35,597 bases of DNA, taken from positions 1-35,597 of the forward strand of contig JAQIBX010000171.1 of the NCBI GenBank assembly GCA_027858895.1, given 5' to 3'. Positions 7,648-14,458 of the stretch are shown here, piece by piece. A program made the position numbers and the translations under genes. Under the pieces are notes generated by a model. The model had not been told where the DNA came from and did no database searches. It worked only from the letters and a program-made list of their open reading frames with translations. Source of the stretch: Desulfuromusa sp. Lineage in GTDB: Bacteria > Desulfobacterota > Desulfuromonadia > Desulfuromonadales > Geopsychrobacteraceae. How positions within the stretch are numbered: the stretch's first letter is position 1; each line of letters begins with the position of its first letter.

Positions 7648-7858
7648 GGGTTGCTGATTGACTTAAGTCTGCTTCGTGACAGTCAATTCTTTGCTGTGAT
7701 TCGCGAGATCAACAGTCGCCTGATTATTGTGTCTAAAAGATGAACTCTTCCACCACCAACCAGCTCATGTTATAAACTTCCACATATTTTATTTGGACTG
7801 TTCTTGGGACTGAAACCACTCGGACTTGATAAATTCAGGTCTAGCTCTGTGGGGGCAC

Positions 7859-9826
7859 ATGATTCGCCATCCTTTCGTTTTTTTTAACAATCTAAAAATT
7901 CGCTGGAAACTGTTGGTTATTATTCTACCGTTGGTGGTCATTCCTATTTTTCTGCTCGGTGGAACCATCGGTTACATTGCCACGAATCAGGCTTATAAAG
8001 GGTTAGCGAGCACCAGTAAGGCTGACCTTGACCATATGGCTAGTTTTACCCTTGATCTGTTGGAGGGGCATTATCGTCAATTTGAAGTGTCTCGCAAGGA
8101 TAAAAAAAGAATTGTCCAGCAGGAAATGAAAACTTTGGTTAGATTTGCCCGCAATCAGATCAATGAGCAACAAGAACCGATTGTATCAGGGACTATTGAT
8201 CTGGCAACCGGTCAGAAAATAATTCGCAATAGCTTTAAAAAAGTAAGTATTGGTAGCAGTGGCTATCTGTTTGCTCTCACCACCAAGGGGGTTTTAACTG
8301 TTCATCCTAGTCGTGAGGGGGAAAATATCATTGAGGTGCAGGATGAGGAAGGTCGCTTCTTTATCCGTGAGCTTATCGAAAAGGCACTGGCATCTAACCC
8401 AGAAGAAATCCTCTATACGATCTACCCATGGCAGAATGAAGAACTAGGAGACAGACGATCACGAAACAAAATAGTTGCCTATTCCTACTGCCGTAAGTGG
8501 GACTGGATTGTCGCTGCGGGTGGATACCTTGATGAAACCTATGACAATCCTGCATTTGAAAAAAAAGCTCTGACAGCTCTTGCTCAGCAGATCAAAAACA
8601 AAAGAGTCGGAAAAACCGGATACATCTATGCTATGTCCAGTAATGGCGTGTTGACCATTCATCCTGATGCCGAGGGACAAAACCTTCTATCTGTCAATGA
8701 TAATGAAAGTCGGGTTTTTACAGCTGAGATGATTGCAAAAAAAAATGGCTGGATTCGCTACCCGTGGCGTAATCCAGGAGAAAAAAAAGCTCGGATGAAG
8801 ATTGTTCGCTACCGTTATTTTGAACCTTGGGACTGGATTATTGCTGTTGGCAGTTACGAAGATGAATTTTACGAAGCAGCAAATAATCTTAAATGGCAAA
8901 TTGCCAAATATGTGTTGCTATTGCCGTTAGTGGTTGGATTAATCGCCACCGTTTTATTATTCTGGGCCTCTAAGATTCTGACCGATCCGATTCATAAAAT
9001 GATCTTGGTCATCCGCAAAGTCAAACAAGGGCGATTGGATGAGAAGATGCCGGTAAAAAATCACGACGAGCTTGGGGAAATGGCGATGTCCTTCAACCGT
9101 ATGACCCAGATGATAAAAAAGAACCAGGCGCTGGAAGCAACCCTTGCCCAGCAGGGGAAAATGGCTTCACTTGGAGTGCTTTCCTCGGGAGTTGCCCATG
9201 AAATTAATAACCCTCTTGGTGTCATCCTGGGCTATGCTGCTCACCTGGAAAGCAAGATAGAAAAAGACGATCCCAACTATACTTTCATTAGTGAGATAAA
9301 GCGGGAGAGTAAGCGTTGTAAAAAGATTGTCCAGAATTTGCTCAGCTATTCACGGACTCCCAGACCGGTTCTTGAACCCACCGATGTCAACCGTTTGCTC
9401 CATCAAATTATTGATTTTGCCGGAAATCATTCTGATCTTTACCATGTTCACATCGTCGAGAGCTTTGCTGCCGATATCCCAACATTTTCAACCGACATGG
9501 ATCAACTCCGCCAAGTTTCTATCAACCTGCTGCTCAATGCGGCATCCGCATCTACTGAAGGAGGGGAGATTAGAGTTTCAACCCGCCTTGATGCAGATCA
9601 ATATGTTCGTATCGAGTTTTCCGACGAGGGTGAAGGGATCTCTGATGAAAATCAGGAGAAAATATTTGAACCTTTTTTTACCACAAAAACCCGAGGAACC
9701 GGCTTAGGTCTTGCTATTACCAAACAGATCATTGATATGCACCAAGGTGAAATTTTTATAGATTCAGCAATTGGGCGAGGAACAACGGTTGTCGTTCGGT
9801 TACCCTTGGTCCGGGAAGAATATTAA
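7859..9826 (+). CDS. Membrane sensor histidine kinase with tandem Cache domains
   Basis: A 655-residue sensor. TM1 (about 17-42) and TM2 (about 350-372) bracket an extracytoplasmic region holding two copies of a single-Cache-like unit: GSSGYLFALTTKGVLTVHP and GKTGYIYAMSSNGVLTIHP, each followed by YPW and a WDWI(V/I)A segment. Cache domains of this sort bind small organic ligands, often carboxylates. HAMP follows (about 375-425), then HisKA with His447 in VAHEINNPLG, and HATPase with the N-box NLLLNAASA, DEGEGI, and FEPFFTTKTRGTGLGLAI. The ATG at 7859 has a G-rich Shine-Dalgarno (7851-7855); a TTG at 7826 is in frame but less likely. The partner regulator is the next gene, 208 bp downstream. 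The adjoining carboxylate transporters suggest the signal, as inference. Confidence 0.9.
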   Translation: MIRHPFVFFNNLKIRWKLLVIILPLVVIPIFLLGGTIGYIATNQAYKGLASTSKADLDHMASFTLDLLEGHYRQFEVSRKDKKRIVQQEMKTLVRFARNQINEQQEPIVSGTIDLATGQKIIRNSFKKVSIGSSGYLFALTTKGVLTVHPSREGENIIEVQDEEGRFFIRELIEKALASNPEEILYTIYPWQNEELGDRRSRNKIVAYSYCRKWDWIVAAGGYLDETYDNPAFEKKALTALAQQIKNKRVGKTGYIYAMSSNGVLTIHPDAEGQNLLSVNDNESRVFTAEMIAKKNGWIRYPWRNPGEKKARMKIVRYRYFEPWDWIIAVGSYEDEFYEAANNLKWQIAKYVLLLPLVVGLIATVLLFWASKILTDPIHKMILVIRKVKQGRLDEKMPVKNHDELGEMAMSFNRMTQMIKKNQALEATLAQQGKMASLGVLSSGVAHEINNPLGVILGYAAHLESKIEKDDPNYTFISEIKRESKRCKKIVQNLLSYSRTPRPVLEPTDVNRLLHQIIDFAGNHSDLYHVHIVESFAADIPTFSTDMDQLRQVSINLLLNAASASTEGGEIRVSTRLDADQYVRIEFSDEGEGISDENQEKIFEPFFTTKTRGTGLGLAITKQIIDMHQGEIFIDSAIGRGTTVVVRLPLVREEY

Positions 9827-10034: not shown

Positions 10035-11396
10035 ATGGCCAAAAAAATTATGATTATCGATGATGAGGAAGGTCTCTGCCGAATGATGTCCATTGTCTTG
10101 ATGGATGATGGCCATGCTGTTCGCACCTTTAGTGATCCACGAGAGGCCGTCGAGCTATTTCGACCGGGCACCTGGGATTTGGTTATCAGCGATATTAAAA
10201 TGCCAGGGATGAATGGTCTGGAAGTTCTGCAAAGAATCAAGGCCTGCGAACCGCATATCCCAATCATTGTGATTACTGCCTTTGCTACGGTAGAGATGTC
10301 CATTCAGGCGTTGCGTAAAGGCGCCTATGATATGTTGACAAAACCATTTGAGCCAGAAGAACTGCTATTCCGGGTGCGCAACGCATTGAATCAGAAAGAA
10401 TTGATGACGGAAAATCAGCAATTGCGTGCAGAGCTGGCAGGAAAATACAACTTCGACAAGATTATTGGTGCTTCAACGATATTGCAGCAACTGCTCAATA
10501 AAGTCGAAAAAGTTGCTGCTCGTGACACCTCTGCTCTGATTACTGGTGAATCTGGAACCGGTAAAGAACTGATAGCTCAAGCCATTCACTATAATTCTCC
10601 ACGTAAGGAAAAGCCTTTCATTGCGATTAACTGCGGCGCTATCCCCGCTTCGGTGCTGGAAAGTGAGCTGTTTGGACATAAAAAAGGTGCTTTTACCGGA
10701 GCTAACTCAGATAAAGATGGGTTGTTTAAGGCTGCTGACGGGGGAACCCTGTTTCTGGATGAAATAGGTAATTTGCCCATAACGGTGCAGAAAACTTTGT
10801 TGCGTTTTTTACAAGAGCAGGAATTTCACCGGGTTGGTGATACCGTTCCGACTCAGGTCGATGTCAGGCTGATTTCTGCAACCAACTCCGATCTGGAAAA
10901 AGAGGTTGTAGAAGGAACCTTCCGGGAAGATCTTTTTTATCGACTGAATGTTATTAACCTGCATCTACCACCCCTGCGACAGCGCAAAGCGGACATTGCC
11001 CTTCTGTCCGCCCATTTTATCGAGCAACAAAATAAAAAGTTTAACACTTCTGTTGCGGGCTTTTCAGCTGAAGCTCAACAGGTCACCATCGATTATGCCT
11101 GGCCTGGAAATATTCGCCAGTTGAAAAATGTTATTGAAGCGTGCATGACGATTGAAACCGAACAAGAAATCAGTTTGGCAACGGTGGCTCAATTTATTGA
11201 GATTGATTCCAGTGTAGGTAGCAGCGAAGATTACAATCATGCTTTGGCACATTTTGAGATCGATTATCTGCGCCAGCTTCTGACTTCAGTGGATGGGAAT
11301 ATTGAGGAAGCAGCAAAGAAAGCGAGCATGAATATGGCAACAATCTACCGGAAATTGAAAAAATATGGATTGCGCAAAGAGGATATGCTGAACTGA
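10035..11396 (+). CDS. Sigma-54-dependent response regulator (NtrC family)
   Basis: A 453-residue transcription activator. The receiver domain (1-120) has the acidic pair in MIIDDEEG, phosphoacceptor Asp53 in VISDIKMPG, and Lys103 in LTKPFEP. The AAA+ domain (about 142-375) has Walker A GESGTGKE (about 168), the sigma-54 contact loop GAFTGA (about 218) and Walker B GGTLFLDEIG (about 236). A Fis-type helix-turn-helix ends the protein (GNIEEAAKKASMNMATIYRKL is the recognition region). All key residues are present, so it should activate sigma-54 promoters after phosphorylation by the kinase encoded just upstream. The likely local target is the -24/-12 promoter at 14355-14371 with the 18-bp palindrome at 14441; that link is inference from proximity and geometry. 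Confidence 0.95.
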   Translation: MAKKIMIIDDEEGLCRMMSIVLMDDGHAVRTFSDPREAVELFRPGTWDLVISDIKMPGMNGLEVLQRIKACEPHIPIIVITAFATVEMSIQALRKGAYDMLTKPFEPEELLFRVRNALNQKELMTENQQLRAELAGKYNFDKIIGASTILQQLLNKVEKVAARDTSALITGESGTGKELIAQAIHYNSPRKEKPFIAINCGAIPASVLESELFGHKKGAFTGANSDKDGLFKAADGGTLFLDEIGNLPITVQKTLLRFLQEQEFHRVGDTVPTQVDVRLISATNSDLEKEVVEGTFREDLFYRLNVINLHLPPLRQRKADIALLSAHFIEQQNKKFNTSVAGFSAEAQQVTIDYAWPGNIRQLKNVIEACMTIETEQEISLATVAQFIEIDSSVGSSEDYNHALAHFEIDYLRQLLTSVDGNIEEAAKKASMNMATIYRKLKKYGLRKEDMLN

Positions 11397-11442: not shown

Positions 11443-11787
11443 CTAAAAAATAACCACTTCAAGACGAAACATCTCCATAAAGGTCATTCCCACCGGCTTC
11501 ATGACCCACAGTGCAAGGGCGCAGATAATCAGAAAAACCATCGTCCAATTGAGAATCTGGGTTCGTAGCGTCCAGTTTGGCTCTTTACGTGGATTACCAT
11601 CTTTATCCAGCTTTGGTGAACGAGTACGCGGATTTTTACGTAATAATCGTCCGGAGGAGAGAAAGATGAGGCCCGAGACAAGAAACTGGGGCATAACATC
11701 GGTACTGAGGACCCCAGCTGTCAGCATGATGGCATAATAAACCAGGGCAACCAACCCTAGAATTGTCATTTGTTGACCAAGATTCAT
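11443..11787 (-). CDS. Small membrane protein, unknown function
   Basis: A 114-residue protein I do not recognise. Two closely spaced hydrophobic segments lie at about residues 8-45 (LVALVYYAIMLTAGV, FLVSGLIFLSSG), then a basic cytoplasmic-like loop rich in Arg/Lys/Pro (LLRKNPRTRSPKLDKDGN), then a third segment at about 80-100 (MVFLIICALALWVM). It lies downstream of, and on the same strand as, the AceTr/MFS transporter genes with a 141-bp gap, and converges with the response regulator gene. No good Shine-Dalgarno is visible; Met7 is an alternative start. It might be an accessory subunit of the transporter cluster, but nothing in the sequence proves that. Confidence 0.6.
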   Translation of the reverse strand: MNLGQQMTILGLVALVYYAIMLTAGVLSTDVMPQFLVSGLIFLSSGRLLRKNPRTRSPKLDKDGNPRKEPNWTLRTQILNWTMVFLIICALALWVMKPVGMTFMEMFRLEVVIF

Positions 11788-11928: not shown

Positions 11929-12519
11929 TCAGGATTCATTAGCTTCGACAGCGATATCAGCCCATTCCCCCAAAGGCAATATCACCCGACCCCGCACTTG
12001 ATTACAGGTCTGCGCTATAACCATATACGCCGCGACCAGTGAGGCAAATATCCCGGTACCGCTACCGACAAACAGAAAAACCCGGTCAGCGCGCAAATAA
12101 TCCATTGCCAGAGCCAGAAAGAAGAACATCATCGCTCCGTAAAGGGCTTGAATCGCAACACTTTGGCGAAAGCTAGCGAGAAATATAATCGAAATAAACA
12201 GACCCCAGAGGCTCATAAAGGAGAACATCGTGACTGGATCAGGGTGGCGGCCCACTCCAAGTTGTGGGGCAATTTCATAACTGAACAACGATAACCAGAA
12301 AATTCCCAGCGGCAATAATGTCGCCGCAGCATAGGCATGTCCCTGTTGTTGACTACGAATTCCGAGCAGAAGCTGTGTGCAGCCTCCACCAAGAAGGATC
12401 GCTCCGGTCAGGTATATTGGTGGATTAAAGGGTTCGATCTGGCTGAAGATATAAGCTACCAATGTTACAGCCAACGCCAGCAATCCTAGCGTTGGCAATC
12501 TGTCTTGCTGCGTGGTCAT
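11929..12519 (-). CDS. AceTr/SatP (GPR1/FUN34/YaaH) family transporter
   Basis: A 196-residue protein with six predicted membrane segments. The order of motifs follows the acetate/succinate transporter family: LGLLALAV near the N-terminus (in place of the usual NPAPLGL), LPLGIFWLSLFSYE in the middle, SLWGLFISIIF, and the terminal RVILPLGEW, which is close to the family's conserved TVLPLG ending. The missing NPAPLGL signature is unusual and may change substrate selectivity. I place the start at the ATG of MTTQQ (12519), which has GGGAG 5 nt upstream; an in-frame upstream ATG at 12573 would force a 34-nt hairpin into the coding sequence. It follows the OFA transporter gene with a short gap, probably in one operon. 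Likely cargo is acetate or another short monocarboxylate. Confidence 0.72.
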   Translation of the reverse strand: MTTQQDRLPTLGLLALAVTLVAYIFSQIEPFNPPIYLTGAILLGGGCTQLLLGIRSQQQGHAYAAATLLPLGIFWLSLFSYEIAPQLGVGRHPDPVTMFSFMSLWGLFISIIFLASFRQSVAIQALYGAMMFFFLALAMDYLRADRVFLFVGSGTGIFASLVAAYMVIAQTCNQVRGRVILPLGEWADIAVEANES

Positions 12520-12537
12520 GATCGCTCCCATGCTATT

Positions 12538-12571
12538 GGAGAGAGCCTTGTCCCGAGACAGAGCTCTCTCC
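12538..12571 (-). promoter_or_regulatory. Intercistronic hairpin between MFS and AceTr genes
   Basis: GGAGAGAGC (12538-12546) pairs perfectly with GCTCTCTCC (12563-12571). The stem sits directly before the preferred AceTr start and after the MFS stop. With no U-run it is better read as an mRNA stability or expression-ratio element than as a terminator. Role inferred. Confidence 0.4.
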
Positions 12572-12594
12572 ATAGGTGGTAGATGGTCAAGCAG

Positions 12595-14313
12595 TTAATC
12601 CTGAACCTGCTGCAGAATCAGGTCTTCCTCTTCGATAAAAACCTCTTCTGTCTCGGTTACTGTTGCTGTTGCTTTCTGCGTACGCAGGGTCATGGCCATC
12701 ATTGCACCGACAAGAAGCAATACGCCGGCAACGATGAAGGATGAATCCATGCTGCCGGTTTTAACTTTCAGCATCTCAGAGACCCGTACCAGAACAAATG
12801 CGCCAATACCCCAGGCGGAGAACAGCAGGCCATAATTCATGCCGAAGTGTTTCATCCCCCAGCTATCCTTGGCAAACGATGGGAACAGGGAAAGGTTGGT
12901 TCCATAGTTGAAAACCATTACCGTTACCAGCAGCGCCACCAGAATCGGGCTGCTGCCCTTGCCACCGAGAATAGGAATCGCAGCAAACATCAGACATGCC
13001 TGAAAAGCCAACATGATACACAACGTTGTTGCTCGACCAATTTTGTCTGAAACTACACCTGCAATCAGTCGTCCGGCAGCATTACCGACCGACATGATGA
13101 CCACAACCAGGAAGGCCATTTCACCCATTGATGCTTTAGCCAGCCCTTTGGCACTGCCGATAACCATTAGTCCAGCACCTGAACCAATAAAGAAACAAAG
13201 CCACAGGGTGTAGAATTTTGCGTTAGTAAAAAGCTGTGACGGTTTCAGATCGGGAACGGTTGAAACTGTTTTGGTTTCCATCTGTTTGGCATCTGAATCA
13301 GCAACATAGCCTTCTGGTGGATTAGAGATCAGCATACCCAGACCGCTGACCACTATCGCAAAAGCAATACCAAAATACATCATCGACTGCTGTAGACCAA
13401 CTGTCGCTAACAGATATTTAGCCAGTGGGGCAATATAGACTGACGCCAAGCCAAAACCGGAGACGACAATTCCAGCGATCAGTCCGGTTTTGGCCGGAGA
13501 AAACCACTTTAATGCCGGTGGCGTTGCCGCCGAATAGCCGAAGCCGATCCCGGTTCCTGCCAACATCCCGAAACCAGCCACCCAAGCCCAATAATTGGTC
13601 GTTTGTGAAATCCAGACAAAACCGGCACCAACCAGTAACCCACCGATTGCACAGGTGGCTTTAGGGCCAAACTTATCCTGAAATTTCCCTGCAATAATCA
13701 TTGCAGCTGCAAATGCCAGACATGCAACGGCATAAGGGTCGTTGATGCTTGCTGCATTCCAGGAAAAGGCGCCTTCTCCGCCAGCGGCGATTGAATCTGC
13801 TATAGCACCTTTAAAAATACTCCAAGTATACAGAATGCCCAGCGCCAGGTTGATCCCAGTACCGGCTAGCACAACCTGCAGGCCGCGATGTTTAATTTTT
13901 TGTGGTTGCATAATAGTTCTCTCCCTTGTTGGCAGTTCCGCGACCAAAGAATCGGATTCTTCGGCAAGATCGGAATTTAGTTTATTGCATCGATAAGAAG
14001 ACGTTACGTCTTTAAGGCGTTGGGATAGTGGCCATTTATTACTGAATTTGATCTTGATAGGCGTGTGGTTTACGTGAGGTCTGATTTCAGGCGCAGGTGA
14101 CGTTAGTGGAATAGATTTTTTGGTCGACCCAGTTCGACCTGCGAACTTTTCAAGAACTTCCGGGTGACTTGTAGCCAGGTCGTCAAATTTGTCGCATTCC
14201 AGGTAACGGGAGGAGCAGAAGTGAGACATTGCTACAACGTCATACGGAGAAATATAGTCTTCGCCCACATCGCAAAACTTTTTATTGTGGTCAAAATAAG
14301 GACATATCGGCAT
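12595..14313 (-). CDS. OFA-family MFS carboxylate transporter with Cys-rich N-terminal extension
   Basis: The 572-residue frame has two parts. Residues 135-572 form a standard 12-TM major facilitator of the oxalate/formate antiporter family (GLQVVLAGTGINLALGILY in TM1; the loop AGKFQDKFGPK). Residues 1-50 carry four spaced cysteines (CPYFDHNKKFC, HFCSSRYLEC) like a small metal-site peptide, followed by an 80-residue hydrophilic linker. Translation from 14313 is supported by AAGGAGG 5 nt upstream. An internal in-frame ATG at 13911 also has a good site (GGGAG), and starts exactly where normal family members begin. Both products may be made, or an upstream peptide gene may have lost its stop. 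Transcription probably begins near 14345 from a sigma-54 promoter. Substrate likely a short carboxylate such as acetate, formate or oxalate. Confidence 0.85.
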   Translation of the reverse strand: MPICPYFDHNKKFCDVGEDYISPYDVVAMSHFCSSRYLECDKFDDLATSHPEVLEKFAGRTGSTKKSIPLTSPAPEIRPHVNHTPIKIKFSNKWPLSQRLKDVTSSYRCNKLNSDLAEESDSLVAELPTRERTIMQPQKIKHRGLQVVLAGTGINLALGILYTWSIFKGAIADSIAAGGEGAFSWNAASINDPYAVACLAFAAAMIIAGKFQDKFGPKATCAIGGLLVGAGFVWISQTTNYWAWVAGFGMLAGTGIGFGYSAATPPALKWFSPAKTGLIAGIVVSGFGLASVYIAPLAKYLLATVGLQQSMMYFGIAFAIVVSGLGMLISNPPEGYVADSDAKQMETKTVSTVPDLKPSQLFTNAKFYTLWLCFFIGSGAGLMVIGSAKGLAKASMGEMAFLVVVIMSVGNAAGRLIAGVVSDKIGRATTLCIMLAFQACLMFAAIPILGGKGSSPILVALLVTVMVFNYGTNLSLFPSFAKDSWGMKHFGMNYGLLFSAWGIGAFVLVRVSEMLKVKTGSMDSSFIVAGVLLLVGAMMAMTLRTQKATATVTETEEVFIEEEDLILQQVQD

Positions 14314-14354
14314 GGTTTCCTCCTTAATAACTGTGTTCTATAGCTGTGGTTCAA

Positions 14355-14371
14355 TCGCAACCCGCATGCCA
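14355..14371 (-). promoter_or_regulatory. Predicted sigma-54 (-24/-12) promoter of the transporter operon
   Basis: Read on the minus strand: TGGCATGCGGGTTGCGA. GG and GC are separated by exactly 10 bp, as RpoN requires, and the boxes match TGGCAY-N5-TTGC. The predicted start is near 14345, leaving a 32-nt leader with AAGGAGG before the ATG at 14313. The neighbouring genes include an NtrC-type regulator. Confidence 0.7.
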
Positions 14372-14440: not shown

Positions 14441-14458
14441 TTTCGCAAATTTGCGAAA
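14441..14458. promoter_or_regulatory. Perfect 18-bp palindrome, candidate enhancer (UAS) site 1
   Basis: TTTCGCAAATTTGCGAAA is a perfect dyad. Its centre lies about 105 bp upstream of the predicted sigma-54 start near 14345, the usual distance for an enhancer-binding protein site. The probable binder is the response regulator at 10035-11396; this is inference. Confidence 0.6.

Follow-up and report, generated by a model that had tools for sequence, protein, structure and literature searches.

A conserved four-cysteine module and a conserved internal start in a predicted sigma-54-controlled monocarboxylate transporter gene of Desulfuromusa

The gene at 12595-14313 of the window, the 35,597-nucleotide stretch of Desulfuromusa sp. 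DNA analysed here, joins a four-cysteine (Cys4) module through a linker to an OFA-type transporter. On the whole we favour reading it as a gene for monocarboxylate uptake under sigma-54 control, with two genuine starts and a Cys4 domain that would be an independent regulatory part. Comparison of sequences supports the identity of the domain, its existence as a separate gene, selection on the in-frame read-through and conservation of the internal start; what we say of metal, partner and direction of control is inferred. New here are the unnamed module found across the class, its occurrence on two transporters that are unrelated to each other, and a conserved layout with two starts. The gene is made up as follows.

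12595..14313, minus strand: long form, Cys4 module plus linker plus OFA/L-lactate-type MFS transporter, 572 aa (NF049980, SfMCT)
12595..13911, minus strand: predicted short form, plain OFA transporter starting at the internal ATG, 438 aa (conserved internal start)
14146..14313, minus strand: Cys4 module, residues 1-56 (C4, C14, C33 and C40; CDVG, YIS and D25 conserved), pN/pS 0.18
13996..14067, minus strand: conserved linker segment, residues 83-106, around KIKFSNKWPLSQRLKDV, pN/pS 0.28
14319..14325, minus strand: Shine-Dalgarno of the long form, AAGGAGG
13919..13927, minus strand: internal Shine-Dalgarno, AAGGGAGAG

The transporter body passed the curated SfMCT model NF049980 (381 bits against a cutoff of 320, residues 145-532) and aligned to structure 6G9X across residues 152-549. 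It scored under the cutoffs of the oxalate/formate antiporter equivalog TIGR04259 (156 bits, curated cutoff 335) and of the broader TIGR00890 (201 bits, cutoff 375). By curated model the gene is an OFA/SfMCT L-lactate-type MFS gene, and lactate transport is its predicted function. The long form starts at ATG 14313, which the earlier note had credited with a good ribosome site; AAGGAGG is indeed present at 14325-14319. The in-frame ATG at 13911 is codon 135. The SfMCT model begins at residue 145, so this ATG is the expected start of a plain OFA protein, in agreement with the note, which had placed it at the normal OFA beginning and given it a ribosome site of its own; the sequence there is AAGGGAGAG. 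At the other end of the protein (window 12598-12630), an acidic EEEDLxLQ-like tail is kept in relatives and the residues before it are variable.

Residues 1-134 matched no Pfam or NCBIfam family. Their cysteines, at positions 4, 14, 33 and 40, have the C-x9-C-x18-C-x6-C spacing claimed for them. In a 28-row alignment of modules C4, C14, D15, V16, G17, S22, D25, C33, C40 and L46 were invariant, and among the screened module copies the fourth cysteine was absent from only one sequence, on an acetate transporter (L051/L079). A profile built from 28 modules detected the module in 204 of the 277 genomes searched from the host's class and in 24 of 395 genomes sampled across the phylum. Searches with the module in Pfam and NCBIfam returned no family, the profile had no match in PDB (best E 1.3) and a plasmid collection gave no match. 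The literature on Geobacter acetate/lactate transport, SatP and Cys-rich domains held nothing on the module, and AlphaFold2 produced no usable model of either the module (25 sequences, pLDDT 64) or the full-length protein (18 sequences, pLDDT 41). Judged by its conservation, the Cys4 module is an independent domain, uncharacterised and absent from the domain databases searched. Its four cysteines probably hold a metal, as Zn or Fe-S, in a metal- or redox-binding site.

The earlier note had raised the fusion of a small Cys-peptide gene to a transporter gene and had proposed a search of relatives for the peptide as a separate gene. This was borne out: elsewhere in the class, in orders other than the window's, a gene encodes the module by itself. 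The neighbouring order has it as a small gene of about 60 residues, and the matches listed there fall in short frames (about 64-190 codons). Within the window's order the module is joined either to OFA, giving frames of about 500-690 aa, or to a GPR1/FUN34/YaaH acetate transporter (about 250-350 aa), a second partner unrelated to OFA, and some genomes carry one fusion of each kind. The module appears to have been joined in this order to the cluster's first transporter, be it of OFA or acetate type. One module-acetate transporter gene, in a draft genome (L102:2963-3815), is split by a frame shift that is probably an assembly error.

We surveyed the neighbourhoods of 30 stand-alone loci from the neighbouring order. 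At 27 of them the module gene adjoined one family of membrane proteins of about 360 aa, without a Pfam or NCBIfam name, and an OFA gene was near 10. Members of the membrane family, at L145:5995-7182, L147:8079-9152 and 25 further stand-alone loci, are possibly a transporter or partner. Across genomes, the module was present in 86 of 88 that bear OFA and in 11 of 46 that do not (Fisher p about 3e-20, with phylogeny not corrected).

The surroundings of the gene in the window contain the following features, and the whole cluster recurs in close relatives.

14356..14371, minus strand: sigma-54 promoter TGGCATGCGGGTTGCG (-24/-12); none of 100 shuffles was as good
14442..14457, no strand assigned: perfect palindrome TTCGCAAATTTGCGAA, also present upstream in L041 and L043
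14613..14628, no strand assigned: second copy of the palindrome, imperfect, 2 mismatches
11929..12573, minus strand: GPR1/FUN34/YaaH acetate uptake transporter, the cluster's next gene, here without module
11443..11787, minus strand: small membrane protein, the conserved third gene of the cluster, with a weak TctB-like match below the Pfam cutoff
10035..11396, plus strand: NtrC-type sigma-54 response regulator
7826..9826, plus strand: dCache-HAMP-HisKA-HATPase sensor histidine kinase

The sigma-54 promoter predicts a 5' UTR of about 33 nt, and a similar site lies upstream of the module gene in 86 of 96 loci, stand-alone genes included. Both marks of a sigma-54 regulon were found, namely a -24/-12 promoter and an NtrC-type activator nearby. 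The palindrome TTCGCAAATTTGCGAA is likely a regulator or enhancer site. GSU2490, an oxalate-formate antiporter listed in a G. sulfurreducens RpoN study, was dropped as support since its promoter is assigned to RpoD. The dCache kinase and NtrC-type regulator usually adjoin fused genes and about half of the stand-alone genes; in the survey the same regulator was near 14 of the 30 stand-alone modules.

Four distant relatives carry a HisKA phospho-acceptor domain, above the Pfam cutoff, between the module and the MFS transporter.

L157:7038-8867: module-HisKA-MFS gene
L158:7671-9533: module-HisKA-MFS gene
L159:7326-9500: module-HisKA-MFS gene
L160:5372-7228: module-HisKA-MFS gene

In these domains the His is present and the ATPase domain absent, and the same kinase-regulator pair was seen, within the stretch examined, in three of the four relatives. 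A derivation of the fused HisKA as a copy of the neighbouring kinase was unsupported, as the fused domains resemble each other far more. The position of HisKA between module and transporter supports, without proving, communication of the N-terminal region with the two-component pair. Physical or functional coupling of the module to that pair, for which gene neighbourhood and the HisKA fusions are the evidence, has in our judgement slightly less than an even chance. Alternatively, the module may be unrelated to the pair and act as a tag, structural or metal-binding, by which carboxylate transporters are stabilised or localised, in which case the shared neighbourhood would merely reflect sigma-54 co-regulation. 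As would suit a tag, the module occurs on two transporter families, and no regulator gene lies within 6.5 kb of half of its stand-alone copies. A tag does not, however, account for a phospho-acceptor domain placed between module and transporter, nor for stand-alone genes that often follow a regulator gene. We regard it as a possibility of some weight, though not a probable one.

The internal start was conserved throughout the fusions. In each of the 50 non-redundant fusions an ATG or GTG at the internal site follows a Shine-Dalgarno by 5-10 nt, with GTG in the place of ATG in L026 and L103. Across the fusions the Shine-Dalgarno is kept in all three codon phases, and in distant members the same site encodes other residues (HRGGID in L136, SSRSKT in L138, EGRSNS in L139). 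On average the Shine-Dalgarno has a strength of -9.5 kcal/mol, compared with -5.4 for synonymous recodings, and among 859 other internal Met codons in these genes only 20 follow one as strong; the internal site was picked as the best of few Met codons near the core, which brings a mild bias. Gene by gene, only 26% of synonymous tests fell below 0.05, a weakness explained by Lys/Arg-Glu-Glu codons being naturally Shine-Dalgarno-like. Retention of the site in other codon phases is the stronger argument.

Relatives that lack the in-frame module also kept the site. Module-less OFA genes nest within the fused clade (97/98); they keep the Shine-Dalgarno and, in most cases, the linker segment. The module was lost from OFA in f12 and f4 relatives. 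L060, L062 and L064 have an out-of-frame leader whose end overlaps the start of OFA as ATGA, and in L110 a stop lies just upstream of the same Shine-Dalgarno and ATG, so in these four the internal start must serve. The ATGA overlap suggests translational coupling after module loss. The module-Shine-Dalgarno-ATG layout also recurs in five fusions of one acetate-transporter branch (L021, L101, L102, L107 and L115), and no strong internal start was found in the divergent acetate-transporter fusions of family f12. By these comparisons the internal start is more than chance, conserved and selected. The earlier note had offered two products or a fusion, and the two readings are compatible; two products are very likely in the light of this conservation of start and ribosome site, and we are confident, short of certainty, that the cell makes both the long and the short protein.

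It is unlikely that only the long form is made and that the internal sequence either arises incidentally from Lys/Arg-Glu-Glu codons or makes the ribosome pause so that the domain can fold ahead of the first membrane helix. The synonymous null, which already averages -5.4 kcal/mol, the mostly non-significant one-gene tests and the divergent acetate-transporter fusions that have no internal start do fit such an account. It leaves unexplained the start codon at 5-10 nt in every fusion, with GTG where ATG was lost, the retention of the Shine-Dalgarno where it encodes RGG, SRS or GRS, and the use of the same start as the sole one in L060, L062, L064 and L110.

The converse has a small probability in our view: all transporter would then come from the internal start, and upstream of it would be a vestigial cistron or a leader, joined in frame without function. 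The out-of-frame leaders with their ATGA overlap fit it, as do the f12 and f4 relatives whose OFA lost the module, but the first ribosome site is strong, and both the frame and the encoded protein have been kept. The 50 non-redundant fusions have 29 linker lengths, every one in frame. A comparison of 12 close genes gave pN/pS values of 0.18 in the module, 0.28 in linker segment 83-106 and 0.12 in the transporter core, indicating translation of, and selection on, the long form; the flanking linker gave 0.72-0.74. In-frame read-through is, on this comparative evidence, under selection. The earlier description of the linker as unlike either part had overlooked the conserved segment at about 83-106. 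The segment has the consensus PIxIKFxNKWPLSxRL, with F90, W94 and P95 invariant, and outlasts the module in relatives from which the latter is gone. Acetate-transporter paralogues without the Cys4 module (L105:2494-3405 and L101:15-893) have a similar segment, KPFxVxWP, indicating that the linker segment also travels alone. An assembly or sequencing error that joined two genes at the window locus, which the earlier note had considered and to which the stops or frame shifts between the parts in L060, L062, L064 and L110 might point, was rejected as having virtually no chance, because the frame is open in independent genomes, with at least 50 non-redundant homologues that include the isolate Desulfuromusa kysingii (L033).

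The gene shares its transporter body with the SfMCT-type L-lactate:H+ symporter, an OFA family MFS protein of known structure (6G9X; PMC6573034), by both the NF049980 score and the 6G9X alignment. The SfMCT chain, however, has a short N-terminus (alignment from its residue 19) and no Cys4, whereas the window gene has 134 extra residues ahead. The GPR1/FUN34/YaaH (SatP) family bears the same module in many relatives and supplies the adjacent gene in the window, but it is unrelated to OFA and its window copy has no module. As a published analogue of the Cys4 module, the closest appears to be STAC, a small cytoplasmic domain found alone or between SLC5 transporters and kinases such as CbrA and CrbS and associated with carbon/acetate use (PMC7918813, PMC7096432). 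Like STAC, the module occurs alone or joined to a transporter and in company with two-component parts, an analogy only, since the transporters differ. STAC follows SSS/SLC5 transporters within kinases, whereas the Cys4 module stands ahead of MFS or YaaH with the kinase as a separate gene; the only signalling part fused to it is HisKA, in distant members only, unlike the STAC kinases. Their sequences were compared only through searches of Pfam and PDB with the module profile, which gave no match. Bacterial genes with alternative in-frame starts, which give N-terminal proteoforms and have been studied by Ribo-RET (PMC11005335), have the same plan of a single gene with two in-frame starts and a long and a short form. 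Here, by contrast, retention of the two starts extends across an order, and the layout recurs on a second transporter family.

MFS proteins usually have an N-in topology, which would place the Cys4 domain in the cytoplasm. Under our reading of two genuine starts, the first would give a transporter with a cytoplasmic Cys4 domain and the conserved linker segment, and the second a plain transporter whose transport would be ungated. The domain, with Zn or Fe-S bound, may serve as a sensor or adapter that adjusts (gates) the transporter, or that signals the transporter's state to the neighbouring dCache kinase and NtrC-type regulator. In the neighbouring order this role would fall to a separate module protein, often encoded between two-component genes and membrane-protein or transporter genes. 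More speculatively, the Cys4 domain could be an exchangeable transporter-to-two-component coupler, separate or fused to two unrelated carboxylate transporters, through which the metal/redox state inside the cell or the transport flux would control both uptake and the sigma-54 operon; the internal ribosome site would set the ratio of coupled to plain transporter, and in distant relatives HisKA would be a docking domain alongside the module.

Separate gene, two-start fusion, loss of the module with the start kept, and insertion of HisKA form a natural series that makes it directly testable what the domain and the internal start do. The layout points to a new way to regulate organic-acid uptake. 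Iron- and sulfur-reducing bacteria of sediments and electrodes feed on the acetate and lactate that they take up, and the control of the transporters is poorly known. Found in about three quarters of the class genomes, alone or on two transporter families, the domain may represent a shared layer of this control.
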